This document shows, in pieces, positions 27,915 to 48,215 of a DNA stretch of 64,000 bases (its first letter is position 1; every line of letters starts with the position of its first letter). The translations under genes and the position numbers were made by a program. A model generated the notes under the pieces. The model saw nothing but the letters and a program-made list of their open reading frames with translations, was not told the DNA's origin and did not search any database. This DNA comes from Polyangiaceae bacterium (GTDB lineage: Bacteria > Myxococcota_A > Polyangia > Polyangiales > Polyangiaceae): contig JAHBVX010000003.1 in the NCBI GenBank assembly GCA_019637295.1, forward strand, positions 682,001 through 746,000, written 5' to 3'.

Positions 27915-28025
27915 CGCCCACGCCAACGCCCACGCAAACGCCAACGCTCCCACGCCCACGCCAACGCCATCCGCCAACGCCAACGCCAACGCCAACGCCA
28001 ACGCCAACGCCAACGCCAACGCCAG
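27915..28025. repeat. CGCNNN hexamer array with eight perfect CGCCAA units
   Basis: The array lies between the convergent ends of the Cys-rich gene and the four-helix-bundle gene. Units read CGCCCA, CGCCAA, CGCCCA, CGCAAA, CGCCAA, CGCTCC, a 2-base slip, CGCCCA, CGCCAA, CGCCAT, a 1-base slip, then eight perfect CGCCAA (27972-28019) and CGCCAG. The uniform block looks like recent slippage expansion. Confidence 0.85.
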
Positions 28026-28388: not shown

Positions 28389-28576
28389 TCCTCACTCACT
28401 CACCCACCGCCCGCGCCCAGTGCGCGGCGGCCGCCGCCCGCCACCAGGCTCGCGCAGGCGCTGTCGAGGCTGCGCGAAGCGCACGGCGCGGAGCCACGCG
28501 CAGGCGCGAAGCGCCGAGCATGGCGAGCACCGCCCCGGCCTCGACCGCGCCGAGCAAGCCGGTACGATCGACAGAA

Positions 28577-28660
28577 GTGCCAGCGTCAGTGCCAGCGTCA
28601 GGGGCAGTGTCAGTGACAGCGTCAGCGTCAGGGGCAGTGACAGCGGCAGTGACAGTGTCA
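28577..28660. repeat. GNGNCA hexamer array, 14 units
   Basis: Fourteen consecutive 6-base units all fit G-N-G-N-C-A without a phase break: GTGCCA, GCGTCA, GTGCCA, GCGTCA, GGGGCA, GTGTCA, GTGACA and so on. It shares its consensus with the longer array at 30728-30943, and like that one it is followed at once by a CGCNNN array. Confidence 0.85.
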
Positions 28661-28663
28661 TCC

Positions 28664-28747
28664 CGCCCCCGCCCCCGCCCCCGCCCCCGCCCGCGCGAAC
28701 GCCCACGCCCACGCCCACGCCTACGCGAACGCCCACGCCCACGCCCG
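28664..28747. repeat. CGCNNN hexamer array, 14 units
   Basis: Fourteen units in unbroken 6-bp phase: four CGCCC[C/G], CGCGAA, three CGCCCA, CGCCTA, CGCGAA, two CGCCCA and CGCCCG, with one further CGCCCC at the start. It lies about 50 bp upstream of the gene at 28801. Confidence 0.85.
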
Positions 28748-30727: not shown

Positions 30728-30943
30728 GTGACAGCGTCCGTGTCGGGGACTGCGTCCGTGTCGGGGACTGTGTCAGGGTCCGTGTCAGGGACTGCGTCCG
30801 TGTCGGGGACTGCGTCCGTGTCGGGGACTGTGTCAGGGTCCGTGTCAGGGACTGCGTCCGTGTCGGGGGCTGCGTCCGTGTCGGGGGCTGCGTCCGTGTC
30901 GGGGACTGCGTCCGTGTCGGCGCCAGTGGCGGGGTCAGTGACG
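30728..30943. repeat. GNGNCN hexamer array, 36 units with internal 60-bp duplication
   Basis: All 36 consecutive hexamers fit G-N-G-N-C-N with no phase break; the common ones are GCGTCC, GTGTCG, GGGACT, GTGTCA and GGGTCC. The ten units at 30734-30793 are repeated exactly at 30794-30853, so the array has grown by duplication of a 60-bp block as well as by single units and an 18-bp triplet (GCGTCC-GTGTCG-GGGACT). Confidence 0.9.
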
Positions 30944-30952
30944 AGCACCGAA

Positions 30953-31060
30953 CGCCAACGCGAACGCCCGCGCAAGCGCGCTCGCCCACGCGAACGCGCT
31001 CGCCCACGCCCGAGCCCACGCGAACGGGCTCGCCCACGCCCACGCGAACGCCTTCGTCGC
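30953..31060. repeat. CGCNNN hexamer array following the GNGNCN array
   Basis: Eighteen units in phase: CGCCAA, CGCGAA, CGCCCG, CGCAAG, CGCGCT, CGCCCA, CGCGAA, CGCGCT and so on, with two point-mutated units (AGCCCA, CGGGCT). It begins 9 bp after the GNGNCN array, the same order and orientation as at 28577-28747. Confidence 0.85.
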
Positions 31061-31076
31061 GTTCTCGCTCGCTCGC

Positions 31077-31133
31077 GACCCAACGTGGGGCGTCGTCGTC
31101 GCGCTCGCGCTCGCTCGCGACCCAACGTGGGTC
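31077..31133. repeat. Two copies of palindrome GACCCA-ACG-TGGGTC upstream of the HNH gene
   Basis: Copy one (31077-31091) has a single mismatch in its right arm (TGGGGC). Copy two (31119-31133) is a perfect 6+3+6 inverted repeat. Both sit in a larger direct repeat (CTCGCTCGCGACCCAACGTG) spaced 42 bp apart. The same palindrome, with a G in the centre, recurs inside the HNH gene. Confidence 0.8.
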
Positions 31134-31367
31134 GTCGGTCGTTGCGCTCTCGCGAAGAATGTCTCGCGCTCATGTCGATTTCGCTGGACAGCATTTTCGA
31201 CGCGCCGCGTGCACGCTCCGCAGGCGGATGTGGATGAGCGCTCTCCGAGCCCTGCGCGGCGCGCTGGCGCGCTCTCGCGCGCGCGGCGAGTTTCGAGGCG
31301 ATCACCCGCGCCCTCGCCGCGCAGCGCGCCGCTGAGAGGGCCAAGATTTCGCGTGCTATGCGAGGGC

Positions 31368-33163: not shown

Positions 33164-33292
33164 CGCGAACGCCGCCCAGCCCACGCGAACGCCCACGCCC
33201 ACGCCCACGCGAACGCCCCCGCCCAGGCCCACGCGAACGCGCCACGCCCACGCGAACGCCCACGCCCAGGCCCACGCGAACGCCCACGCCCA
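33164..33292. repeat. CGCNNN hexamer array with phase slips
   Basis: About 20 units, mostly CGCCCA and CGCGAA with CGCCCC and GGCCCA variants. They run in three phase blocks separated by slips of 1-2 bases (near 33182 and 33244). It lies 70 bp downstream of the transposase remnant and about 110 bp before the histidine kinase gene. Confidence 0.8.
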
Positions 33293-37257: not shown

Positions 37258-39855
37258 ATGACGTTTCGACGACGATCCTACGGTCTGGTTTTGTCCATCG
37301 CGGGAGCGGCCCTGGCGGCGGCGCCCGCCTGTTCGGGCGAGGACGGCGGCGGCGGCGGCGGCAAGAGCTGCTCGATCGGCGGGGAGCGTTTCGCGCCGGG
37401 GGATCCCACCGGGCACCCGGACGTGTACGGCGCGAAGGCGGCGGGTCAGGCGCGCGCGGGCCGCATCACCAGCGCCGCCGACGTCGTGCAGCCCGCTCAC
37501 GGCCGGCAGCGGGTCAACGTCGGCGACTTCGTGCTCGCCAACGACAAGGTCGCCTTCGTGATCGAAGACAAGGGCCTGAGCGACGGCTACGCCCGCTTCG
37601 GGGGCGAGATCTTGAGCGTCGATCGCGTCGGGGACGACGGGCGCCCCATCGGCCAGAGCTACTACGTCGAGACGCTCATGGCGCTCGGCGTCGAGATGAT
37701 CAACCCCGAGACCGTCAGCGTGCTGAACGACGGCTCGGACGGCCAAGCCGCGGTCGTGCGCGTGGCCGGCCCGCTCGAGGCCATCCCGTTCATGGACGGC
37801 GCCCTCGGCGTGCTGTTCCCGCGCCGCTACGGCCTACAGGCGGCCTACGACTACGTGCTCGAGCCCGGCAGCGAGCGGCTGCTCGTGCGCCTGGGCCTCA
37901 AGAACCCGGAGAAGACGCCGGTGAACATCGCCGTCGACAACATCACCGACGACATGCACGGCTTCTTCCAGCTGAACATGAACCAGTTCGTGACGGCGGA
38001 GCACGGCTTCGCCGGAGCCAAGGGCAAGCTGGACTGGGCCGGCTTCGTCAACCCGGGCACCAGCTTCGCGTGGCGCTCGCCCCGAGGCCAGCTCAACTTC
38101 GGCGTCGAGATCAGCGGCTTCGTGTACACCCTCGCGCCGGGCTTCACGGTGGACGGCTGCACCACCCATGTCAGCGACCACGCCGAGATCATCGCCGGCG
38201 GCTTCGAGTACGACGCCCTGCGCGAGGCCATCCGCCGGGTGGACGACGCCGCGCCCTGGCGCACGATCGAGGGCGTCGTGCGGGACTCCTCCGGCGCGCC
38301 GGTGGCGGACGCGCTGGTCCACGCGCTGGGCGCGTCCGGCGAGTACCTGAGCCGCACCCGCTCGGCCAGCGACGGCAGCTACGTCATCCACGCTCCCGCA
38401 CAGGCCATCAAGCTGGTGCCTCAGGCGAGCGGCTACCCCTTGGGCGCGGGCGTCGACGTCGACGCGCAGACCGGCTCCCTCGACTTGCCCTTCGCGTCCA
38501 CCGGCACCGTGACCGTGACCATCACCGACGCCGACACGGCCACCGCCATCCCCGCGCGCGTCCAGGTCATCCCCCAGAGCGGGGTGAGCGCTTCCCCCGC
38601 GGCTTACGGACAGGAAGACGAGCGCAACGGCCGCCTGCACCAGGCCTTCGCCGTCAGCGGCGAGACCACGCTGGTGGTGCCGCCGGGCACGCATCGTTTG
38701 GTGGTCAGTCGCGGGTACGAATACGAGCACTACGACCAGGAGGTGACGATCACCGCCGGCCAGACCGAGGCGGTCGCCGTCGCCCTCGAGCGCAGCGTGG
38801 ACAGCACCGGCTGGATGTGCGCGGACTTCCACATCCACTCCAAGTACAGCGCGGACAGCAGCGACCCAGCCGAGCTCAAGGTGGTGCAGGCCATCGCCGA
38901 CGGCCTGGAGATCCCCGTATCGAGCGAGCACGAGTGGATCATCGACTTTCAGCCCATCATCGCGGCGCTGGGGCTCACCGACTGGGCCTTCGGTATGCCC
39001 AGCGAGGAGCTGACCACCTTCACCTGGGGCCACTTCGGCGTCGTGCCGCTGTTCCCGAAGCCAGACGAGCTCAACAACGGCGCCGTGGAGTGGATCGGGC
39101 GCCTGCCGCCGGAGATGTTCGCCGACGTCCAGGGGCGCCCGGAGGATCCGTTCTTCATCGTCAATCACCCGAGCGGCGGCAACTTCGGCTCCTACTTCAG
39201 CCAGGCGGGTCTGGACGCGACGGGCGTGGGCAAGGACGCGCAGCTGTGGAGCGACGACTTCGACGGCATCGAGGTGTTCAACGACTCGGATCTCGAGGAG
39301 AATCGCAAGAAGAGCTTCGCCGACTGGATGGCCATCCTGAAGAACGGCAAGCACGTGTACGCGGTCGGCTCCAGCGATAGCCACCACGTGCGCTCGAGCC
39401 CCGTGGGCTACCCGCGTACGTGCCTGTTCTTCGGGCACGACGATCCCAAGCAGCTCACCGCCAACATCGTGCGGGATGTGCTCGCCAGCGGCCAGTCCAC
39501 CATCAGCGGCGGCCTGTTCATGACGGTGGAGGGCCCCGGCGGCGAGAAGCCCGGGGCGGTCCTGAACGCGGGCGGCTCGACCGTCACCTTCACCATCACC
39601 GTGCAAGCGCCGAGCTGGATCGACGCGACCGAGCTCGAGACCTTCGTCAACGGCGAGTCCCTCGGCTTTCAGCCCCTCGAGCCCCTCGGCGCCGGCACCG
39701 GGCAAACCTTCGTCAACCAGGTCACCGTCACCCTCGACGCGAGCCGCCCGGAGAATTTCGTGCTCTTCCACGCCAAGGGCGAGAGCGATCTCGCGCCCCT
39801 GCACCCCGGGCGGCGGCCCTTCGCGGTCTCGAATCCCATCTTCATCAAGCCGTGA
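37258..39855 (+). CDS. CehA/McbA-like PHP-domain metallohydrolase, exported
   Basis: I favour the ATG at 37258, giving a lipoprotein-like signal (LVLSIAGAALAAAPAC); an ATG at 37240 is also in frame. After a Gly linker, residues 40-330 form a beta-rich domain. Residues about 330-405 look like a carboxypeptidase regulatory-like fold (VVRDSSGAPVADALVHA, SDGSYVIHAP), and a second beta domain follows. The PHP domain starts with DFHIHSKYSADS, with SSEHEW, FFIVNHPSGGN and AVGSSDSHHV supplying further metal ligands. These are phosphoesterase/hydrolase-like sites of the CehA/McbA family. The TGA stop is itself the first bases of a 25-unit hexamer array. Substrate unknown. Confidence 0.82.
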   Translation: MTFRRRSYGLVLSIAGAALAAAPACSGEDGGGGGGKSCSIGGERFAPGDPTGHPDVYGAKAAGQARAGRITSAADVVQPAHGRQRVNVGDFVLANDKVAFVIEDKGLSDGYARFGGEILSVDRVGDDGRPIGQSYYVETLMALGVEMINPETVSVLNDGSDGQAAVVRVAGPLEAIPFMDGALGVLFPRRYGLQAAYDYVLEPGSERLLVRLGLKNPEKTPVNIAVDNITDDMHGFFQLNMNQFVTAEHGFAGAKGKLDWAGFVNPGTSFAWRSPRGQLNFGVEISGFVYTLAPGFTVDGCTTHVSDHAEIIAGGFEYDALREAIRRVDDAAPWRTIEGVVRDSSGAPVADALVHALGASGEYLSRTRSASDGSYVIHAPAQAIKLVPQASGYPLGAGVDVDAQTGSLDLPFASTGTVTVTITDADTATAIPARVQVIPQSGVSASPAAYGQEDERNGRLHQAFAVSGETTLVVPPGTHRLVVSRGYEYEHYDQEVTITAGQTEAVAVALERSVDSTGWMCADFHIHSKYSADSSDPAELKVVQAIADGLEIPVSSEHEWIIDFQPIIAALGLTDWAFGMPSEELTTFTWGHFGVVPLFPKPDELNNGAVEWIGRLPPEMFADVQGRPEDPFFIVNHPSGGNFGSYFSQAGLDATGVGKDAQLWSDDFDGIEVFNDSDLEENRKKSFADWMAILKNGKHVYAVGSSDSHHVRSSPVGYPRTCLFFGHDDPKQLTANIVRDVLASGQSTISGGLFMTVEGPGGEKPGAVLNAGGSTVTFTITVQAPSWIDATELETFVNGESLGFQPLEPLGAGTGQTFVNQVTVTLDASRPENFVLFHAKGESDLAPLHPGRRPFAVSNPIFIKP

Positions 39856-40002
39856 GCGGGGGCGGGGGCGGGCGCGTTCGCGTGGGCGTTCGCGTTCGCG
39901 TTCGCGTGAGCGGGGGCGGGGGCGGGGGCGGGGGCGTTCGCGTTCGCGTTCGCGTGAGCGGGGGCGGGGGCGTGAGCGAGGGCGTGAGCGGGGGCGGGGG
40001 CG
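39853..40002. repeat. NNNGCG (reverse CGCNNN) hexamer array, 25 units
   Basis: Twenty-five units in perfect 6-bp phase: TGAGCG, GGGGCG, GGCGCG, TTCGCG, TGGGCG and AGGGCG. The first unit is the stop codon TGA of the PHP gene plus GCG, and the array ends 3 bp before the stop codon of the convergent anti-sigma gene. It fills the whole intergenic space. Confidence 0.9.
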
Positions 40003-40005
40003 CCG

Positions 40006-40710
40006 TCATGGACCCAGCGCGTCGATCAGCGCCCGCGCCTCGGGTTGCCGGTATCCGCCCGCTTTGCCCTCGGCGAACGGCTCGAGCGCGGTCTTCGCTT
40101 CGCCCGTGCGACCGAGGCGCACGAGGCACAGCGCGCGGTTGTAGCGCGCCTCGAGCGCGAAGCGCCCCCGCGGGGCGGCGCTCAGGTAGCGCTCCCACGC
40201 CGTGATGGCCGCGCCGAAATCGCGCTGCTCGAAGTGAGCGCGATGGGCGGCGCGGTACAGCGCGTCGGCGGGATCCGCGGCGGGCAGTGCGGACGCGGAC
40301 GCTCCCGCGGCGCCGGACGGGGACGCGGCGGGCTCGTCGCTCGCCGCTTCCGCGGCCGGCTCCGCCCACGGCGCGGGCGCGACAGCGGGCGCGCTCGCAG
40401 CCGCGGAGACGGCGCGCACCCGTTCGTTCGCTGCGGGCGCCGCTCGGGTGAGCACCACGGCGCGCTCGGTGATCCCCAGCAGATCCGTCACCACGCGGGC
40501 GCTGCGCTCGAGGCCGCCCCCCGCCGCGGCCGCGCTGACCCCAAACAGCACGGCAGCCGCGGGCAGCACCCACAGGACGCGGCGGCCCCGGCTTCGCTCT
40601 CCGGCGTGCAGGTCTCGCAGGATGCGGGCGCGGGTCAGCTCCGCCGGCGCCGGCTCCCGCGCGAAGTCGTCGAGCGCCTCGAGCGCCTCACGCATCGGAT
40701 CGTCGGTCAT
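40006..40710 (-). CDS. Membrane anti-sigma-like protein with TPR-like tail
   Basis: The start is the ATG at 40710, which overlaps the sigma factor stop (ATGA), so the two should be translated together. The frame upstream of it is a shadow of the sigma gene. The first 70 residues are polar and helical (DPMREALEALDDFAREPAP), as in the cytoplasmic part of anti-sigma factors. One hydrophobic helix follows (VLWVLPAAAVLFGVSAAAAG), then an Ala/Pro-rich periplasmic linker. The C-terminal TPR/YbgF-like segment is ADALYRAAHRAHFEQRDFGAA, WERYLSAAPRGRFALEARYNRA. There is no ZAS HxxxCxxC zinc motif. Position and topology make it the probable anti-sigma factor. Confidence 0.7.
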   Translation of the reverse strand: MTDDPMREALEALDDFAREPAPAELTRARILRDLHAGERSRGRRVLWVLPAAAVLFGVSAAAAGGGLERSARVVTDLLGITERAVVLTRAAPAANERVRAVSAAASAPAVAPAPWAEPAAEAASDEPAASPSGAAGASASALPAADPADALYRAAHRAHFEQRDFGAAITAWERYLSAAPRGRFALEARYNRALCLVRLGRTGEAKTALEPFAEGKAGGYRQPEARALIDALGP

Positions 40711-41300
40711 CCGTGTCCCTCCCGCTCGAAGGCCTCTCGCAGCTTCTTCTTGGCGTGCATCAGGCGCGTGCGCACCGTGCCCTCCGGCGCGCCGACCATT
40801 TCGGCGACCTCGCGGGAGCCGAGCTCCTCCATCTCGCACAGCACGAAGGCCACGCGCTGATCGTGCGGCAGAGCATCCAGAGCGCGCACGAGCGCGCGCC
40901 GCAGCTCGGCGCGCCGCGCGTCCTGCTCGGGGGTTGCCGGCTCGCTGCGCGGCTCGTCGGTCAGCCGCTCGCTAGCGGCGCGTCGGCGCATGGCGCTGCG
41001 CAGGTGATGACGCGAGCGATTGACGGCGATCCCGAACAAGAACGAACGCAGCGTGGACTCCCCGCGGAAGCGCGAGGCCAGCTCGGGCAGCGACACGAAC
41101 ACGTCGTGCACCAGATCCTCGGCGGCGTGCGCGTCGCCGAGCAGGCGCCGCGCGAACGCGCGCAGCGGCGCGTGGTGCAGATCGTACGCCTCGCCCACGG
41201 CGCGTGGCTCGCCCCGACCGAGCCGCTCGAGCAGAGAGTCGTCGCCGCGCCGGCTCACGGCGGGAAGGTCCAACGAAACGTCCACTCGGGAAAGGGTCAT
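40707..41300 (-). CDS. ECF-family RNA polymerase sigma factor
   Basis: A 197-residue protein starting at the ATG at 41300. The much longer open frame to 43262 is fortuitous. Region 2 reads AVGEAYDLHHAPLRAFARRLLGDAHAAEDLVHDVFVSL, then FRGESTLRSFLFGIAVNRSRHHLR (region 2.4). Region 4 is ALDALPHDQRVAFVLCEMEELGSREVAEMVGAPEGTVRTRLMHAKKKL, the helix-turn-helix that reads the -35 element. The gene is followed by the anti-sigma-like gene with a 4-bp overlap and preceded by its own copy of the promoter motif seen at 42899 and 48189, which suggests positive autoregulation. Confidence 0.92.
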   Translation of the reverse strand: MTLSRVDVSLDLPAVSRRGDDSLLERLGRGEPRAVGEAYDLHHAPLRAFARRLLGDAHAAEDLVHDVFVSLPELASRFRGESTLRSFLFGIAVNRSRHHLRSAMRRRAASERLTDEPRSEPATPEQDARRAELRRALVRALDALPHDQRVAFVLCEMEELGSREVAEMVGAPEGTVRTRLMHAKKKLREAFEREGHG

Positions 41301-41338
41301 CACCGGGCCCGCGCCCCGGCTCGGGTGCGCCAGGGTGA

Positions 41339-41365
41339 GTGCCCGCGCCAGGCCGAAGCGTTCAA
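41339..41365 (-). promoter_or_regulatory. Putative ECF-sigma promoter of the sigma factor gene
   Basis: On the minus strand, TTGAACG (41359-41365), exactly 12 bases, then GCGGGCAC (41339-41346). The start codon lies 38 bases further on. The two blocks are identical, with identical spacing, to the sites at 42899-42925 and 48189-48215. Confidence 0.7.
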
Positions 41366-41413
41366 TGCCTCGCGACGATTCGGCCGGACCGGCGGAAATC
41401 CCGCCGATCCCGC

Positions 41414-42379
41414 TCACGGCGTCCACTGGATACCCCCGAGGGCGTCGGCCTGCTCGTCGGTCGCGCCGCCCTCGACCTCGACCCGCACGCGGGCCGCGGC
41501 GCCCACCCAGAGGCCAAACGAATCGCTCAGCCCCAGGCCGAGGGTGGCCCGCAGGCTCGCCACCTGATGGCGCTCGCGGGTGCTCGACTCCTCGAGCGGC
41601 GCTTCGAACGCGTAGCCCAGCCCCGGCTCGAAGCTCCAGCGACCGGCGGGCAGGTGCGCGCCGAGCACGAGCTCGCCGCGACCGAGCACCACCCGGCGAT
41701 CGCCGAGCGCATGGTCCGGGCTCATCCCGAAGGACAGCTCGTTGAACACGCTCCCGGTCACCAGCTTCACGCCAACGTTGGCCGGGAAGCGATACGACGC
41801 GAACCCGAGCACACTGGCGCGCGTGTTCTTCGCGACGGACACCAGGCCGATCGGCGCGCCGTCCACGTGCTCGGCGACGTTGACCACGCCGAGCTGCACG
41901 CCGGTCACGCGACCCGCGACGTTGACGGCGCCGAGCTGAACCCCATCCAGCCGCCGTGCGAACGTCACCGCGCCGAGCTGCATCCCGGTCAACGAGTCGT
42001 TGATGGCCAGCGGGGCCAGGTTGAGTCCCGAGCCTTGACCCTCGCCCAGGGTCACCGGCGCGATCTGCACGCCCTTGGGATCGCGGGCCCGCGCGAGCCC
42101 CGCCGCGAGCTGCGCCCCCGACAGCGAGCGATCGATGCGCGAGTAGCCCACGTCCAGCGCGAAGCCCTCGATCGCGCCCACGCGCCCGTACGCCAAGCCG
42201 AGCTCGAGATGCAGGCGCCGCTCCCGAGCGTCGGGGTAGAGCGCGATCGGCGCGAGCAGCTCGTCGAGCTGCTGCTGGGTGAAGGGCTTGGGGCTGTCCT
42301 GGGCGGGGACGGGCACAGCCATCGCCCACAGCAGACAGGCCAGCAGCCAGACGGCGAACTTCGGATGCGGTCGGGTCAT
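41414..42379 (-). CDS. Exported protein with LA_2272-type surface repeats and DUF3300-like N-terminus
   Basis: A 321-residue protein with a signal peptide (FAVWLLACLLWAMAVPVPAQD). The mature N-terminus FTQQQLDELLAPIALYPD is the opening motif of DUF3300 proteins, but the rest of that domain is absent. Then come repeats of about 20 residues: GVQIAPVTLG, GMQLGAVTFARRLD, GVQLGAVNVAGRVT, GVQLGVVNVAEHVD and APIGLVSVAKNT, as in LA_2272-type surface repeat proteins. The C-terminal half has alternating strands ending in ARVRVEVEGG and may be an outer membrane beta structure. It starts 21 bp after the stop of the frameshifted gene, so the two are probably co-transcribed. Confidence 0.75.
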   Translation of the reverse strand: MTRPHPKFAVWLLACLLWAMAVPVPAQDSPKPFTQQQLDELLAPIALYPDARERRLHLELGLAYGRVGAIEGFALDVGYSRIDRSLSGAQLAAGLARARDPKGVQIAPVTLGEGQGSGLNLAPLAINDSLTGMQLGAVTFARRLDGVQLGAVNVAGRVTGVQLGVVNVAEHVDGAPIGLVSVAKNTRASVLGFASYRFPANVGVKLVTGSVFNELSFGMSPDHALGDRRVVLGRGELVLGAHLPAGRWSFEPGLGYAFEAPLEESSTRERHQVASLRATLGLGLSDSFGLWVGAAARVRVEVEGGATDEQADALGGIQWTP

Positions 42380-42400
42380 GGCGGTCTCCGCGGCGGCGTT

Positions 42401-42890
42401 TCAGTTGAGGTCGGGGTCGAGCAGGTACGCGGGCTCCGGCGCGGGCTCGGGCTCCAGCGGGGCCGCCGTGTCGGGCTCCGGCAGCGGCGGGCGCGAGCTC
42501 GCGCAGCAGCTCGTCCGCCTCGTCGCGCACGAGGTTGCCCGCGAGCAGCGCGATAGCCTCGATGGCGGCGGCTTCGTCGCCGGGCAGCTCGATGGCGCGG
42601 CGCAGCGGCGGCCGGCCCGCGCGGCGCACCTGCAGCTCCGCGCGGCGGCGCGCGCGATCCACCCGCACGACCAGCGTGGTCGGCTGCGCGGCCTCGGCCA
42701 CGCTGACGCCGAGCTCCGCGGCGATGGCCTCGCGCAGCCGTCCGGCGTCGGGCCCCGACGGCGCGACGATCTGCACCCCGAGGGGCGCGGCCGCGGGCGC
42801 GCCGCCCGTGGGCGACGGCTCCGCGAGCGCTGTCAGCGGCACCCCGAGCGCCAGAGACGCGACGAGCGCGGCGACGAGGCGAGCGGTCAT
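42401..42890 (-). pseudogene. Exported protein gene with a probable single-base frameshift
   Basis: From the ATG at 42890 the frame gives a signal peptide (LVAALVASLALGVPLTALAE), then LGVQIVAPSGPDAGRLREAI, TTLVVRVDRARRRAELQVRR and EAIALLAGNLVRDEADELL. It then drifts into Arg-rich shadow sequence with no stop for over 2 kb. In the +1 frame, from about 42490, the sequence reads PLPEPDTAAPLEPEP and ends AYLLDPDLN with TGA at 42401-42403, just before the next gene. The 490-bp span is one base more than a multiple of three. Either a real indel or a sequencing error near 42490 explains this. The protein family is unknown to me. Confidence 0.6.
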
Positions 42891-42898
42891 GCTGTTGG

Positions 42899-42925
42899 GT
42901 GCCCGCGAGAGACCCGATCGTTCAA
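42899..42925 (-). promoter_or_regulatory. Putative ECF-sigma promoter of the frameshifted exported-protein gene
   Basis: On the minus strand, TTGAACG (42919-42925), 12 bases, GCGGGCAC (42899-42906). Only 8 bases separate it from the ATG at 42890, so the transcript would be leaderless or nearly so. The -35 block overlaps the stop codon of the zinc-ribbon gene. Confidence 0.7.
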
Positions 42926-43329
42926 CGCGACAGGCGCGCGAGCTTCTGGCCCAGCCACGCCCAGAGGGACGGCGCCTCGCTCGCGCGATCCGGCGCGCCG
43001 GCGCGACCGAGCGCCGACACACCATTGGCGTGCACGAAGGTGCCGGCGCACTCGCCGCAGCGATGCACCCGCGCCTCCGAGTCGGGCTCGGGATAGCCCG
43101 TCTCTTCGAGGGCCACCTGGCACACGGGGCACCGGAGCTGACCCAGCTTACCGGAGGGCCCGTCGCCGCGCCGCACGGACTGCGCGACCTGGCTCGGATC
43201 GCCGTCGAACCACTCGATGAACACGCCGCCGCAGCTGCTACAAACGTCCACCTCGCACTCACCCGTGTGCTCCACCGTCATGGCGGCACTGCACCCGGGA
43301 CACGCCAGAGACTCACTTCGGTACGACAC
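42922..43329 (-). CDS. Double zinc-ribbon protein (zf-TFIIB type)
   Basis: I start at the GTG at 43329, which avoids overlap with the tonB-like gene; the frame is open to 43494. The 135-residue protein has a first zinc ribbon formed by LACPGCSAAM and VDVCSSCGGVFIEW. A second one is formed by LRCPVCQVALEE and VHRCGECAGTFVHANG. The C-x2-C pairs and the C-x2-C-G-G-x-[FW] pattern match the zf-TFIIB family found in many bacterial proteins of unclear role. The C-terminus has an amphipathic helix (LWAWLGQKLARL). It lies 56 bp behind the TonB gene in the same direction. Metal binding is likely; function is unknown. Confidence 0.8.
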   Translation of the reverse strand: MSYRSESLACPGCSAAMTVEHTGECEVDVCSSCGGVFIEWFDGDPSQVAQSVRRGDGPSGKLGQLRCPVCQVALEETGYPEPDSEARVHRCGECAGTFVHANGVSALGRAGAPDRASEAPSLWAWLGQKLARLSR

Positions 43330-43385
43330 GCCGCGATGCTCACACCGATCCTGTGGGACCGCGATCGAAATGTGGCATCCCGCGC

Positions 43386-44141
43386 CTAGCTCTCGATCCG
43401 AAAGCGACACTGATACGTGACCAGGGTCGCGACGGGCCTGCCGCTGCGATCCTTGGGCGGACTCCAGCGGCTGCCCGCGACGGTGCGGCGACAAGCGTCG
43501 CCGAAGCCCGCGTCCGACTCGTCGAGCACCCCGAGCACCGTCGCGACGCCGGAGGGCTCGATGCGCACGCGCACCCGCGCCGCGCCTCCGACGCCGCGGG
43601 CCCGAGCGTCCGGCGGGAAGTTGCCGGCGAGTCGCCCCGCGAGCCCGGGCGGCTTCGGCTTCTCGCCGAGCTGGCGCACGGGGACGACCGCCGGGGGAGC
43701 GGGCGCCGCCGGGCGACTCGGCGCCGGCGCGCTCGCGACGGGCGCGGGCGGAGCCGGCGCCGGCGGCGCGCTCACCACGGGCGCGACGATGGGCGCGTCG
43801 GAGGAGGTCCCGTCGCCGCTCGGCAGCTCGAAGCCACCCGCGCTCGACTCGAGGTTCTCCCCGGTCGGCGCGCGGGGCGCCGCGGGGACGGCGCGCGGCG
43901 CGGCGGCGACCGGAGCGCGGTCCGCGCTGCTCGGCGCTGGCTCCGGCGCGGCGGTGGGCGCTGGCTCCGGCGGCGAAGCGGGCTCGTCCTCGACCGCCGG
44001 GGACGTGAGCACGAAGGAGACGGTCTCGGGCGCCGGCGGCGCAGCCGCCGGCGCCTCGGCCAGCGTGAGTGATCGCACCACCGCGCCGTGCAGCACCAGG
44101 CTGCCAAGTACGGCGAGGCCTCGACGCGCGGCGATGCTCAC
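43386..44141 (-). CDS. TonB-family energy transducer
   Basis: A 251-residue protein with an N-terminal membrane anchor (RRGLAVLGSLVLHGAVVRSL, containing the conserved SxxxH-type His), a long Pro/Ala-rich periplasmic spacer and a C-terminal TonB-like domain. The last includes VRVRIEPSGVATVLGVLDESDAGFGDACRRTVAGSRWSPP, where ...W-x-P is typical. It spans the periplasm and passes the energy of the ExbB/ExbD motor to an outer membrane receptor, here surely the product of 46098-48113. Its start overlaps the ExbD gene stop by 4 bp. The order receptor, lipoprotein, exbB, exbD, tonB makes a dedicated transport operon. Confidence 0.85.
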   Translation of the reverse strand: MSIAARRGLAVLGSLVLHGAVVRSLTLAEAPAAAPPAPETVSFVLTSPAVEDEPASPPEPAPTAAPEPAPSSADRAPVAAAPRAVPAAPRAPTGENLESSAGGFELPSGDGTSSDAPIVAPVVSAPPAPAPPAPVASAPAPSRPAAPAPPAVVPVRQLGEKPKPPGLAGRLAGNFPPDARARGVGGAARVRVRIEPSGVATVLGVLDESDAGFGDACRRTVAGSRWSPPKDRSGRPVATLVTYQCRFRIES

Positions 44142-44554
44142 AAGAGCTCCTCCGGACGCACGTTGAAGCCTAGATGAGTGACCCCCTCGCGACGCAAGAG
44201 GTCGATCACGCGCACGACGCGTCGGTGCGGCACGGCGCCGTCGGCGGAGATCAGCGCGCGGGGCGCCTGGCTCGCCTTCGCGACGGCCCGCACGCGCAGC
44301 GTGAAGGTCGCGTCGTCCACCAGCGCACCATCCAGGTACAGCGCGCCGCTCTTGTCCACGGAGATCGCCAGCACGCCCCCGGTGCTCTCGCCCGTCGCGC
44401 TGCGCGGTAGCTCGAGGGGAATGGCGCGCGACGCGACGTAGCTCGCGGTCACCATCAGCACCACGAGCAACACCAGCACGACGTCCACTAGCGGCGTCAC
44501 GTTGATACCCGTGATGGACTCGCTCGAGTCATCGAGGTCGCTCGCGCTGGCCAT
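44138..44554 (-). CDS. exbD: ExbD/TolR-family proton channel subunit
   Basis: A 138-residue protein with the hallmark ITGINVTPLVDVVLVLLVVLMV. This is the single membrane helix with the essential Asp in P-L-V-D that carries the proton path. A periplasmic domain follows, with ISVDKSGALYLDGALVDDATF and ALISADGAVPHRRVVRVIDLL. It starts 3 bp after the ExbB stop and overlaps the tonB start by 4 bp. With ExbB it forms the inner membrane motor powered by proton motive force. Confidence 0.92.
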   Translation of the reverse strand: MASASDLDDSSESITGINVTPLVDVVLVLLVVLMVTASYVASRAIPLELPRSATGESTGGVLAISVDKSGALYLDGALVDDATFTLRVRAVAKASQAPRALISADGAVPHRRVVRVIDLLRREGVTHLGFNVRPEELL

Positions 44555-44557
44555 GAC

Positions 44558-45190
44558 TCAGGTCTCCTCGCTGGGGGCGCGGCCGACGTGAGCGAGCACC
44601 TCCGCGCCCAGCGCTTCGGCGCGGGTCATCCGCGCGCGGACCATGCGATTGAAGGTGTTGAACGCGATCACCGCCGGCAGCGCGACGAGCAGACCCACGG
44701 CGGTCGCCACCAGCGCCTCGCCGACCTCGTTCATGAGGCCCTGTGAGATGCGGCCCTCCGCGCCGTCCAGCTCACGGAACGCGCGGATGATCCCGATCAC
44801 CGTGCCCAGCAGGCCGATGAAGGGCGCGTTGTTGCCCAGAGTGCCGAGGAACACCAGGTGCTGTTCGAGCTCGAGCTGCGCGAAGCGCCGCGCTCCTGCG
44901 AGCTTCTCGCGCGCACCATCCCCGTCCCGGGCGTCCAGCGCCGCGACGGCGACCCGCGCCTCGAAGGACGGCGACTCCTGCAGCCGGTGCCGCGCCGCCA
45001 CGACCTGGCCCCGCGCCAAGAGCGCCGCCACCTGCTCCGAGAGCTTGGGCACGTCGTCTCTCGAGAGCCAGAACACCACGCTGCGCTCGATGGTCACCGC
45101 CACCGCCGCCACGCTCGCTAGGCCCAGCAGCGCCAGCACCCAACCCGCGCCAAAGCTCGTCAACTTGCTCGCCATTTCCAGCCACGACAT
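44558..45190 (-). CDS. exbB: ExbB/TolQ/MotA-family proton channel subunit
   Basis: I start at the ATG at 45190, giving a 210-residue protein of normal family length; the frame is open to 45730, but that part is a shadow of the lipoprotein gene. The first membrane helix is GAGWVLALLGLASVAAVAVTIER. The family signature FLGTLGNNAPFIGLLGTVIGIIRAF comes next, then GEALVATAVGLLVALPAVIAFN with the conserved Thr and the pore-lining helix. It assembles as a pentamer around ExbD in the inner membrane. It lies 17 bp behind the lipoprotein gene. Confidence 0.92.
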   Translation of the reverse strand: MSWLEMASKLTSFGAGWVLALLGLASVAAVAVTIERSVVFWLSRDDVPKLSEQVAALLARGQVVAARHRLQESPSFEARVAVAALDARDGDGAREKLAGARRFAQLELEQHLVFLGTLGNNAPFIGLLGTVIGIIRAFRELDGAEGRISQGLMNEVGEALVATAVGLLVALPAVIAFNTFNRMVRARMTRAEALGAEVLAHVGRAPSEET

Positions 45191-45207
45191 CGTCTTGGTC
45201 CTCTCTT

Positions 45208-46101
45208 TCACGTGCCCGCGGGCACCAGACACAGGGCTCGTTCTGCGAGATCGGCCCCACCCCGTCCGTCCCGCAGCACGAACCAGAAGCGCACCACGCG
45301 CCCGCCAGCGGGCGCGCTCTTCGGCCGCGTCCAGGCGAAGCTCACGGCGGGGGGTGAGGTCGGCTCCGTCGGCTCCACGAACTGTCGAGTGGAGCCGAGC
45401 TCGCCCGCGTCCGAGAACGCCGCCACCGACAGGGTCTCGCGCACGCCGTCCACGACTTCTCGATCCGCGTCGCGCAGCGCCAGGGCGAGTCGGCTCTTGC
45501 CGCCCGTCGCGGGCACCGAAGGCCCGGTCCCACACGGATCGCTGCCCTCCGACCAGGGCGCGCCGTCCAGGGACAGCGCGTCGGCCGTCAGCTGCGGGTT
45601 CAGGTTGTCGACCTCCGGCGCCATGTCCAGCTCGAAGCTCACGCGCCCGCCGGCGTGGCCGTCGCTGCAGCCCATCGCCTCGGGCCAGTCGCTGGTCTGC
45701 AGGAGCGGACTCGCCACGCCAGCGCCGCACACCACGCCGAACAACAACAGACGCGACGACTCGCTCGGCGCGACGAACGCGAGCCGCGGCGCAGCGACGT
45801 CGAGCACGTCACGGCGCGCCTCGACCAGCGGCGGCGCGCTGCACCCCGGCACGTCACCCAGGACCGCGTCGCGCTCGCAGAGCCACAGCGCGTAGCTCGT
45901 CTCGGGCGCGCCACCCGGCGCGGCGAGCCACACCACGACCTCCGCGGACTCGCCCGGCGCCGGCGTCGCTCGCTCGGGCTGACCCGTAACCTCGCTCCGC
46001 GCGCCGATCGCGCGCGTCTTCTCGATCGTCTGCTCCGGGTGCAGCGGGTCTTCGCAGCCCAGGGTCGCCAGCATCAGCAGCGCGCCGCTCCTTCGGGTCA
46101 T
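45208..46101 (-). CDS. Lipoprotein of the TonB operon, unknown function
   Basis: A 297-residue protein with a short lipoprotein signal (GALLMLATLGC, lipobox TLGC). The mature part starts EDPLHPEQTIEKTRAIGAR and has several Cys in pairs (LWLCERDAVLGDVPGCSAPP, CGAGVASPL, MGCSDGHAGG) and beta-rich spacing (VSFELDMAPEVDNLNPQL, VVRFWFVLRDGRGG). No family is recognised. Its ATG overlaps the stop of the TonB-dependent receptor gene by 4 bp, and exbB follows 17 bp later. It is thus very likely a partner of the receptor, perhaps a surface substrate-binding lipoprotein as in other TonB systems; that role is inference. Confidence 0.75.
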   Translation of the reverse strand: MTRRSGALLMLATLGCEDPLHPEQTIEKTRAIGARSEVTGQPERATPAPGESAEVVVWLAAPGGAPETSYALWLCERDAVLGDVPGCSAPPLVEARRDVLDVAAPRLAFVAPSESSRLLLFGVVCGAGVASPLLQTSDWPEAMGCSDGHAGGRVSFELDMAPEVDNLNPQLTADALSLDGAPWSEGSDPCGTGPSVPATGGKSRLALALRDADREVVDGVRETLSVAAFSDAGELGSTRQFVEPTEPTSPPAVSFAWTRPKSAPAGGRVVRFWFVLRDGRGGADLAERALCLVPAGT

Positions 46102-48113
46102 AGCTCACCTCTCAGTCCAAGGTTCGGGAGGATGGGCAAGCCGCGCACCGGCTCGCTCCGCGAGTAGTCGTAGGAGTACGCCCTGCCCTGCGCGTTCTCT
46201 GCGTTGGTGGCGTTCTGCAGGTCGAGGTACGCCGTCAGGCGCGCCGCGCCGAGCTGCCACGCCTTCTGCACCATCACATCCAGCTGAAAGAACAGCGGGT
46301 CTTCCTCGGAGCCGACCGCGCCATACAGCGGCCGATACAGCCCGACCCGCGCGTCGTACACGCTGCCCAGCACCGGAGTGCTCGGGTTGCCCGACACGAC
46401 GCGCAGGCGCGCGCCGGCCGAGAATCCTGCGCCGAGCCGTTGGTGCAGCGCGGCCACGACGTTGTGCGTTTGATCGCTGTCGAAGCGACGCCAGGGTCCG
46501 TTGCGATCGCGCCGCTCGCTGCGGCTGAGGGTGTAGGCGAGCTGCGCGCGGGTGTCCGCCGTCGGACGCGCGGTGATGCCCAGCTCCGCGCCGATCACGC
46601 GCCCGTCGCCGTCGTTCACGAAGTACGGCGCGTTGCCGTCCGCGGAGGTGACCACGCGATGGGTCATCCGCTTGGCGAAGCCTTCGAGCTCCACGCTCAG
46701 GTCGTCCGAGAAGCGACGCTCGACACCCAGAGACGCGTGCAACGAGCGCTCGGGCTCGAGCTTCGGGTTACCGATGACGTCGATGATCTCGTAGTACTGC
46801 GGCGCCTGGGAGTACAGGCCCACCCCCGCGCCGAGCGCGGTGCTGTCGTCCAGGGCAAAGCGAGTCGTGAGGCGCGGATCCACGCTCAGCTGGCGCGACG
46901 GGAAGTACGCGTCGAGGCGCAGCGCCGGCACGATCCGCACCGCGCGGGACGCCGACCAGCCGAGCTCGAGGTACGCGCCAGGCGCGACCTGCGTCAGCGT
47001 GTCGGCCACCTCCACCCGCGGCCCGAGCGCGTTCGGGACTTCGAGCAGCGGATCCCCCTCGAGCTGGCGCGGACGCGTGCCGCGGTAGCTCCCGTCCAGG
47101 AACGTGGCCTTGGCGTCGACGCCCGTCACCAGGGTGAGTTCGCGCGACGCCGGCTCGGTCACCTCGCCGCGCAGGGTCAGCTCCCAGGACTTGAACTCGC
47201 CGGCGGTGTTTGGTCCCGCCTTCTGCTCGAAGAGCTGGCGCGACGCGCCGAGCAGCAGCCGGTGACCGCCGCCGTCCGCGCGCCGCCCTCGCGACGAGAG
47301 CGCGAGGTTGTGAAACTCGATCCGGCCGCCGGCGTCGCCGCGCAGCTCGGGATCCGACGCCAGCGGCCGGGCGAGCCTCAGCTCGATGCGGTCGCGGCTG
47401 CCGAACACCACGGCGCGCAGCGAGTGGGTCCTGGACAGCTCGCGCTCGACGACGGCCTGGTAGTCCCAGTACACCGGCGCCGCGATCACGCCGTAGGCGT
47501 CGTCCGGCGCGAAGGCGTCGAAGTACACGTCGATGTTGCTGCGTCGGGCCGCGACGGCCACCGACGTGTCGCGCGCCACGGGCCCCTCCACCAGCGCCGC
47601 CGAGTCGATCAAGGAGACATCCACCATGCCGTGCAGCCCGTCCATCGCGGGGCGGCGCAGGTTCGCCTCCACCACGCCGCCCGACATCCGTCCGTAGCGC
47701 GCGCCGAAGTTCGAGGGGTACACGTCCACGGACTCGAACAAGCGGGAGCTCACCACGCTGGTGAGCGAGCCAAAGTGGTAGAGCAGCGGCACCGTCATGC
47801 CGTCGATCAGCACCAAGCTGTGGAAGCTCGCCGCCCCGCGCAGGATGGGGGTACCGTCGCCGTCCGAGGGCCGACCGACGCCGGGCAAGAGCTCGATGGC
47901 GCGCATGGCGTCACCGCGGGTCCCGGCCACCTCCGTCAGCTCCTCCCTCCGGAGCGTGCGCTTCTTGGCTTCGCGCGGCGGCGCTTCGACCACCGCCTCC
48001 TCGCCGTACACGAGCTCGTCGTCGCTCTCGACCAGCTCCGGGTCGGCGTCGACCTCGGCCCGAACCGCGACGGGAATCATCAGGATCAGCATGGACCAGC
48101 CCAGTGCTCGCAC
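46098..48113 (-). CDS. TonB-dependent outer membrane receptor
   Basis: The start is the GTG at 48113, with a perfect GGAGGT site 5 bases upstream; the frame open to 48275 lacks a ribosome site and would run past the promoter. The 671-residue protein has a signal peptide (WSMLILMIPVAVRAE) and an acidic N-terminal strand that may be the TonB box. A plug domain follows: LRGAASFHSLVLIDGM, VYPSNFGARYGRMSGGVVEANLRRP. The rest is a 22-strand type barrel with strands ending in aromatic residues. It should import a siderophore, vitamin or oligosaccharide, powered by the adjacent ExbB-ExbD-TonB. It has no carboxypeptidase-like N-terminal domain. Confidence 0.9.
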   Translation of the reverse strand: MRALGWSMLILMIPVAVRAEVDADPELVESDDELVYGEEAVVEAPPREAKKRTLRREELTEVAGTRGDAMRAIELLPGVGRPSDGDGTPILRGAASFHSLVLIDGMTVPLLYHFGSLTSVVSSRLFESVDVYPSNFGARYGRMSGGVVEANLRRPAMDGLHGMVDVSLIDSAALVEGPVARDTSVAVAARRSNIDVYFDAFAPDDAYGVIAAPVYWDYQAVVERELSRTHSLRAVVFGSRDRIELRLARPLASDPELRGDAGGRIEFHNLALSSRGRRADGGGHRLLLGASRQLFEQKAGPNTAGEFKSWELTLRGEVTEPASRELTLVTGVDAKATFLDGSYRGTRPRQLEGDPLLEVPNALGPRVEVADTLTQVAPGAYLELGWSASRAVRIVPALRLDAYFPSRQLSVDPRLTTRFALDDSTALGAGVGLYSQAPQYYEIIDVIGNPKLEPERSLHASLGVERRFSDDLSVELEGFAKRMTHRVVTSADGNAPYFVNDGDGRVIGAELGITARPTADTRAQLAYTLSRSERRDRNGPWRRFDSDQTHNVVAALHQRLGAGFSAGARLRVVSGNPSTPVLGSVYDARVGLYRPLYGAVGSEEDPLFFQLDVMVQKAWQLGAARLTAYLDLQNATNAENAQGRAYSYDYSRSEPVRGLPILPNLGLRGEL

Positions 48114-48188
48114 GATCGACCTCCAGGGGAGCCGACCGAGACACGACGGCTCCGGGCGGAGCCAAGCGGCGGCGACTTCCGAGGATGC

Positions 48189-48215
48189 GTGCCCGCTCGC
48201 TCGAGTCCCGTTCAA
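48189..48215 (-). promoter_or_regulatory. Putative ECF-sigma promoter of the TonB receptor operon
   Basis: On the minus strand, TTGAACG (48209-48215), 12 bases, GCGGGCAC (48189-48196). It lies 75 bases before the receptor start codon and is identical in both blocks and spacing to the sites at 41339 and 42899. Confidence 0.7.

Follow-up and report, generated by a model that had tools for sequence, protein, structure and literature searches.

Genes of the locus and a motif confined to it

The window analyzed here, a stretch of 64,000 nucleotides from a Polyangiaceae bacterium (GCA_019637295.1, contig JAHBVX010000003.1, positions 682,001 to 746,000), features a minus-strand cluster in which genes for TonB-dependent uptake, a surface protein and a sigma factor of the extracytoplasmic function (ECF) type are interspersed with three copies of the two-block motif TTGAACG-N12-GCGGGCAC, a candidate ECF promoter. 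In the direction of transcription the order is promoter motif 1, receptor, LIPO, ExbB, ExbD, TonB, zinc-ribbon protein, promoter motif 2, surface protein (in two pieces), promoter motif 3, sigma factor and a membrane protein with tetratricopeptide repeats (TPR) (Table 1). The sigma factor was assigned to the ECF type (group IV) on the basis of Pfam matches to sigma regions 2 and 4 and a match to the NCBIfam sigma70-ECF superfamily, all of them above cut-off. Compared by sequence with the PDB, the receptor yields weak matches to a ferredoxin receptor (E 0.00094) and to another iron receptor (E 0.002).

Table 1. Features of the locus in window coordinates. LIPO, EXP and SURF are labels used here. 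Motif positions include the trailing NCA; distances run from the motif end to the likely start codon as chosen by us.
Feature	Position	Strand	Remark
Candidate promoter motif 1, TTGAACG-N12-GCGGGCAC-NCA	48186..48215	(-)	75 nt ahead of receptor start (GTG 48113)
TonB-dependent receptor, plug and barrel, 671 aa from GTG 48113	46098..48113	(-)	domain scan
LIPO, protein without assigned family between receptor and ExbB, 297 aa	45208..46101	(-)	no family in family scan
ExbB-type proton channel protein, start ATG 45190	44558..45190	(-)	Pfam scan, on a copy beginning six codons after ATG 45190
ExbD-type protein, 138 aa	44138..44554	(-)	domain scan
TonB-type protein, 251 aa	43386..44141	(-)	domain scan
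TFIIB-type zinc-ribbon protein, 135 aa	42922..43329	(-)	domain scan
Candidate promoter motif 2	42896..42925	(-)	8 nt ahead of ATG 42890 (exported protein)
EXP, surface protein first part, signal peptide and small domain	42402..42890	(-)	frame break, see text
SURF, surface protein second part, LA_2272-type repeats and barrel	41414..42379	(-)	signal peptide, see text
Candidate promoter motif 3	41336..41365	(-)	38 nt ahead of sigma gene (ATG 41300)
ECF sigma factor, sigma regions 2 and 4, 197 aa	40707..41300	(-)	Pfam, NCBIfam
Probable anti-sigma factor, a membrane protein with a TPR domain in the periplasm, 234 aa	40006..40710	(-)	overlaps sigma gene end

A preliminary description of the locus had reported exact minus-strand copies of the motif at 48189-48215, 42899-42925 and 41339-41365, and all three were confirmed. 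It had also proposed a genome-wide search for random spread. In 7,651,130 bases on 25 contigs no further exact copy exists, all three copies lie within 7 kb on one strand, about 0.03 are predicted from the base composition of the genome, and the reversed control pattern has no exact match in the same 7,651,130 bases. With up to two mismatches the genome contains 52 motif matches, the three exact ones included, compared with 74 for the reversed pattern, which is at or below background. Given this confinement and the lack of any excess of relaxed matches over the control, the motif is not randomly spread. Matches with one or two mismatches elsewhere in the genome were rejected as targets because they do not exceed the control, and a match to a relaxed pattern at C12:903013 was rejected because it resides inside a gene according to codon-usage gene calls. 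A GGGAAC-type match is present at C12:768927. Within this genome, no targets other than the local ones stand out.

In all three copies the second block is followed by NCA (TCA, CCA and GCA), and the pattern extended in this way matches three times in the window, compared with no match in 100 shuffles. The earlier statement that the sequences differ outside the blocks thus does not hold for these common bases. The stop codon of the zinc-ribbon gene sits within the -35 block of motif 2. Because this motif ends so close to the start codon, a transcript initiated at the usual distance from the -10 element would be nearly leaderless.

Conservation of the motif with the sigma gene

Fifty-nine genomes, the window's own among them, were examined, and 28 of them encode a full-length close relative of the sigma factor. 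The 27 others share 50-64% identity with it (E 3.6e-45 or better); the other ECF genes of the 59 genomes are mostly at 30-40% identity and one is at 47%. Fragments of close relatives were noted in genomes G022 and G051, in the latter at a contig end. Among the 31 related loci taken are both fragments and the additional sigma copies of G021 and G058. The unaltered motif of the window was sought in 350 bp upstream of the sigma gene at 30 loci. This set excludes L165, whose sequence is truncated at the sigma gene, and contains the fragment L166 as well as the additional copies L164 and L167. The preliminary description had called for such a search in relatives, and the result supports an ECF promoter: sites with at most two mismatches precede the sigma gene at 17/30 loci and sites with at most three at 20/30, compared with 0/30 at up to three mismatches for the reversed pattern and 1 in 1,500 shuffles at up to two. 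Upstream of paralogous ECF sigma genes, the motif is found in 0/20 cases at up to two mismatches and in 1/20 at three. The second sigma copies in G021 (L164 9574-10104) and G058 (L167 9402-9902) have no upstream site with up to four mismatches and may read another promoter.

Across the 30 loci (443 kb), the motif has 44 sites with at most two mismatches and the reversed pattern has two. With the spacer allowed to vary from 8 to 17 bases, 18 of 19 matches had a spacer of 12, and an A three bases past the second block, which played no part in site selection, is kept in 35 of the 44 sites, resulting in the consensus tTGAACG-N12-sCGGGCAC-nnA. According to excerpts of PMC8103513, classical ECF boxes carry AAC in the -35 and CGT in the -10 element, with the CGT requirement having been dropped in later classifications. 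TTGAACG contains AAC, and GCGGGCAC lacks CGT.

Co-occurrence of motif and sigma gene was analyzed with the pattern NTGAACR-N12-SCGGGCAC, leaving out G022 and counting G051, with its fragment, among the genomes without the gene. Genomes with a full orthologue (n=28) contain 82 motif matches versus 34 for the reversed control, while those without (n=30) contain 14 versus 36 (Fisher p 3.5e-7 for the co-occurrence); in the latter the motif is depleted relative to the control. The 82 matches are distributed over sigma loci (32) and other places (50). A form with GGGAAC that ends in NNA yields ten matches versus four for the control, five of the ten being located at sigma loci.

A broader sample comprising 377 genomes from the phylum revealed an orthologue (E 1e-42 or better) in 36 genomes from seven families, one of which (seven genomes) lies outside the class. 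Nineteen new loci were obtained, 14 of which could be scored and five of which lack an anchor; 11 of the 14 have a site with at most two mismatches, and an exact one is present outside the class (L261). Among the matches listed in a contig scan, there are at least three full-length named relatives, L057-L059 (51-54% identity), and the partial L077 (58%), all from metagenome-assembled genomes. Taken together, these comparisons provide good support for the motif being an ECF promoter tied to the neighboring sigma factor.

The conserved module and its predicted targets

Gene presence at the 31 related loci was scored by tblastn. The TPR membrane protein is encoded at 27 loci, the other four ending within 569 bp downstream, and the surface protein, counted by either of its halves, at 24; nine loci have the receptor, six each have ExbB and ExbD, and the zinc-ribbon protein was seen at 0/31. 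Judging from this distribution, the conserved core consists of sigma factor, TPR membrane protein and surface protein, and TonB-dependent uptake is one output. The designation as a TonB-transport regulon under an ECF sigma factor, as put forward in the preliminary description, is therefore too narrow, although the link between motif and sigma factor is supported by the comparison. The gene for the TPR protein had been absent from that account.

The position of the surface-protein gene varies. At some loci it precedes the sigma gene, at others it follows the TPR gene, and at one it is divergent; at most such loci it carries its own motif. In G019, five contigs each hold one gene behind a motif; the products are the sigma factor, a fusion of TonB with a receptor, the initial portion of the surface protein, one lipoprotein and one small exported protein. 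In G043 the motif precedes a TonB-receptor fusion adjoining the sigma gene, in G003 a receptor gene on a separate contig, and G036 likewise has a gene of the receptor or fusion type behind a motif, at 560 nt. As far as can be judged from these arrangements, the motif travels with its target genes upon rearrangement. Single proteins that combine TonB and receptor are encoded behind the motif at L171 3115-5709 and L144 15970-18312. In the window, the C-terminal portion of the TonB protein shows a match, far below cut-off, to the N-terminus of the NCBIfam model for the myxochelin receptor MxcH, in line with the occurrence of TonB-receptor fusions in this group.

Matches were regarded as promoter-like when they were located outside of called genes with a start codon within 250 nt, genes being called by a codon-usage script. 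By this definition, 16 of the 50 matches distant from sigma loci are promoter-like, 30 reside inside genes and four are neither; the corresponding values for the 14 matches in genomes without the orthologue are one, 12 and one (p 0.057). Fourteen of the 16 promoter-like distal targets appear to be exported, as judged by visual inspection of their N-termini together with a simple lipobox pattern, the exceptions being a DUF2382 protein and a methyltransferase. Proteins resembling copper type II ascorbate-dependent monooxygenases are encoded behind the motif in G032 (L150 10751-12121), G020 (L176 10260-11558, at ~256 nt) and G004 (L141 9565-10830, behind a GGGAAC site), and their presence in three genomes hints at copper as a part of the signal or of the output. 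Further motif-preceded genes encode beta-lactamase-family lipoproteins (G048, G020), small cysteine-rich lipoproteins of apparently similar type (G019, G020, G015), a tandem pair of barrel proteins (G021), a Ysc84 lipoprotein and a crystallin-like lipoprotein. Exact matches in G011 and G022 were attributed to chance, being located within an open reading frame. The exact match in G041 is antisense within a called gene and yet located 73 nt ahead of another start.

The surface protein of the relatives is a single protein of roughly 500-600 residues. In 15/15 relatives in which both parts were detected they reside in one open reading frame, and two more relatives showed the first part only. In the window, the gene (41414-42890) is split: the first part leaves the frame near 42485, and the second restarts at 42379 with a new signal peptide that is weakly DUF3300-like (below the Pfam cut-off). 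This second part contains LA_2272-type repeats that score above cut-off. The extra stretch in the split gene is flanked on both sides by the string CCCGAC, and the split may be either a real rearrangement or an assembly error. What the preliminary description had listed as an exported-protein gene is indeed preceded by the motif and equipped with a signal peptide, but represents one half of this split gene. The AlphaFold2 model for the protein from a relative of the same genus begins with a helix at the N-terminus; then come a small alpha/beta domain and a disordered linker, which leads into a long beta part. Residues 395-532 match eight-stranded outer-membrane barrels such as OprF (Z 16.6, root-mean-square deviation 2.5, 124 aligned), the VIA list for the surface protein giving good coverage of residues 393-532 only.

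The TPR protein starts no more than about 40 bases from where the sigma match ends. A short N-terminus precedes its one hydrophobic stretch, and a variable linker connects this stretch to the conserved TPR part. The hydrophobic stretch is found near residues 43-54 in 24 of 26 translated proteins, also in that of the window, and is weak at L152 and located elsewhere at L163. AlphaFold2 predicts helices at residues 5-17 and 22-62 with moderate confidence, at a predicted local distance difference test (pLDDT) score of about 60-78, and a TPR domain near 98. Pfam and NCBIfam scans yielded TPR motifs alone, mostly below cut-off. For the models of the TPR protein and the surface protein alike, Foldseek retrieved nothing at E 0.001 or better; the nearest solved folds for the former, weak matches, are the TPR domains of BamD and YbgF (3qky, E 8.4e-3; 2xev, E 1.3e-2). 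The sigma gene is adjoined by a gene for a membrane protein with a predicted cytoplasmic N-terminus, as expected of an autoregulated ECF system with a membrane anti-sigma factor, and by position and topology the TPR protein is a probable membrane anti-sigma factor.

A putative regulatory circuit and its alternatives

CnrY consists of a short N-terminal segment before one membrane helix. The TPR protein resembles the CnrH-CnrY pair in having such a segment ahead of a single helix and differs from it by the TPR domain in the periplasm; sequence similarity was not found. It also differs from BamD and YbgF, since it would have an inner-membrane anchor and stand beside a sigma factor, and because TPR folds are common the fold match shows no shared role. 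With the RpoE-RseA and SigW-RsiW systems, both named in the excerpts of PMC8103513, the locus has several traits in common: the sigma factor has regions 2 and 4 only, the adjoining gene encodes a membrane protein, the sigma gene itself is preceded by a motif, and the -35 element contains GAAC. Unlike in these systems, the -10 element features GGGCAC instead of CGT, and the anti-sigma candidate combines a short N-terminus with a periplasmic TPR part and showed no match to a known anti-sigma domain in Pfam, NCBIfam and PDB searches. According to the same excerpts, membrane anti-sigma factors are the most widespread means of controlling ECF factors, with CnrY and NepR among the class II domains, and in ECF42 a TPR extension is part of the sigma protein, whereas here the TPR domain resides in a separate membrane protein.

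The vicinity of an ECF sigma gene and a TonB receptor gene is reminiscent of FecA-FecR-FecI (for Fec-type signaling see excerpts of PMC11637429, PMC7186176 and PMC9249621). An STN domain was not found on the receptors of the window, L171, L144 and L221, which were scanned as a whole, six others having an N-terminus that is cut or uncertain, and a FecR domain was found neither on the membrane protein of the window nor on two scanned orthologues. Membership in the Fec type was rejected on these grounds. FecI-like factors are, moreover, described in the excerpts of PMC8103513 as exceptions to autoregulation, unlike the sigma gene studied here, which is preceded by the motif itself. A description of a module made up of sigma factor, TPR protein and surface protein was not found in the literature by title or beginning of abstract.

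With a probability of about 0.8, we regard the motifs as promoters of the ECF sigma factor encoded at 40707-41300, which would be autoregulated, be held in check by the TPR protein and drive the surface protein and the receptor operon. The -35 element TTGAACG, the 12-base spacer and the -10 element GCGGGCAC followed by NNA would be bound by this sigma factor, which would raise transcription both of the sigma gene and of the following gene, that for the membrane-bound anti-sigma factor. The latter would hold the sigma factor by its short cytoplasmic segment and span the inner membrane with one helix, while its periplasmic TPR domain would sense the state of the envelope, presumably that of the outer membrane or one related to TonB. 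A change in this state would free the sigma factor and thereby switch on the surface protein and the receptor-ExbB-ExbD-TonB operon.

Several observations weigh against this assignment. A site with up to three mismatches is missing upstream of the sigma gene at 10/30 loci and one with up to two at 3/14 scored new loci; among the matches listed in the contig scan, only L058 of L057-L059 has a site with up to two mismatches before its sigma gene. In the antisense-strand control, 3/30 loci contain a site with two mismatches; these three sites face divergent genes and we read them as the promoters of those genes. Conservation of the blocks is in part built in, since sites were selected at no more than two mismatches, and with 30 of the 50 distal matches located inside genes many of these must be due to chance. 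Finally, Pfam and NCBIfam revealed no known anti-sigma domain on the TPR protein, so that its role is inferred, and a profile of the TPR protein found no meaningful match among PDB sequences.

Instead of a sigma promoter, the motif could be the binding site of another regulator, an activator or repressor, of the same genes. The second block with its GGGCAC and without the classical CGT (PMC8103513, excerpts) would fit such a site, but two blocks at a fixed distance of 12 bases, the GAAC in the first block as in ECF -35 elements (AAC; same excerpts), the location a few to some 80 bases before start codons in a single orientation toward the gene and the co-occurrence with the sigma gene render this explanation unlikely. 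It is also conceivable that the motif is an ECF promoter read mainly by a different ECF sigma factor of the same genomes. ECF genes are numerous, the source genome alone offering 86 candidates at first look, 55 of which were scored, and the motif-less second sigma copies in G021 and G058 could be taken in the same sense. Since the motif stands before this sigma gene and not before the 20 paralogous ones, and is depleted relative to the control where the orthologue is missing, we consider this quite unlikely as well.

Gene order is similar at a part of the loci, and the motif might merely have been retained, without any role, in a slowly changing conserved operon. Among relatives, however, the 12 spacer bases and the flanks vary while the blocks stay constant, and the motif recurs at rearranged and distant genes, which makes this possibility very improbable. 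Even less credit can be given to chance: though there are just three copies in the source genome, the expectation of ~0.03, the absence of the extended pattern from 100 shuffles and the comparative results speak against it, and both chance and random genomic spread were rejected on the basis of composition, shuffles, controls and relatives.

It is tempting to speculate, as a rather doubtful proposition, that signals pass from the outer membrane to the cytoplasm without STN and FecR domains. The barrel protein would carry its small periplasmic N-terminal domain on a long disordered linker and the inner-membrane anti-sigma factor its TPR domain on a similar one, so that the two domains might meet in the periplasm. 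The TPR domain, with its YbgF/BamD-related fold, might read the state of TonB or of outer-membrane assembly and thereby adjust how much of the receptors, lipoproteins and copper-monooxygenase-like proteins is made in myxobacteria. If the TPR domain indeed acts as the sensor, a TonB receptor would be under sigma control without the receptor signaling domain of the Fec type. In any case, a defined candidate promoter can now be assigned to a myxobacterial ECF sigma factor, along with a set of predicted, mostly exported targets and a probable inhibitor whose periplasmic TPR domain is unusual. The module occurs in several families and also outside the class, and each step is amenable to a simple reporter test.

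No Rfam match at gathering score was obtained in the window. Short GC-rich tandem-repeat arrays, mostly with a period of six or multiples thereof (e.g. CGCCCA), are located at 27915-28024, 28576-28746, 30730-31153, 33173-33292 and 39851-40002.

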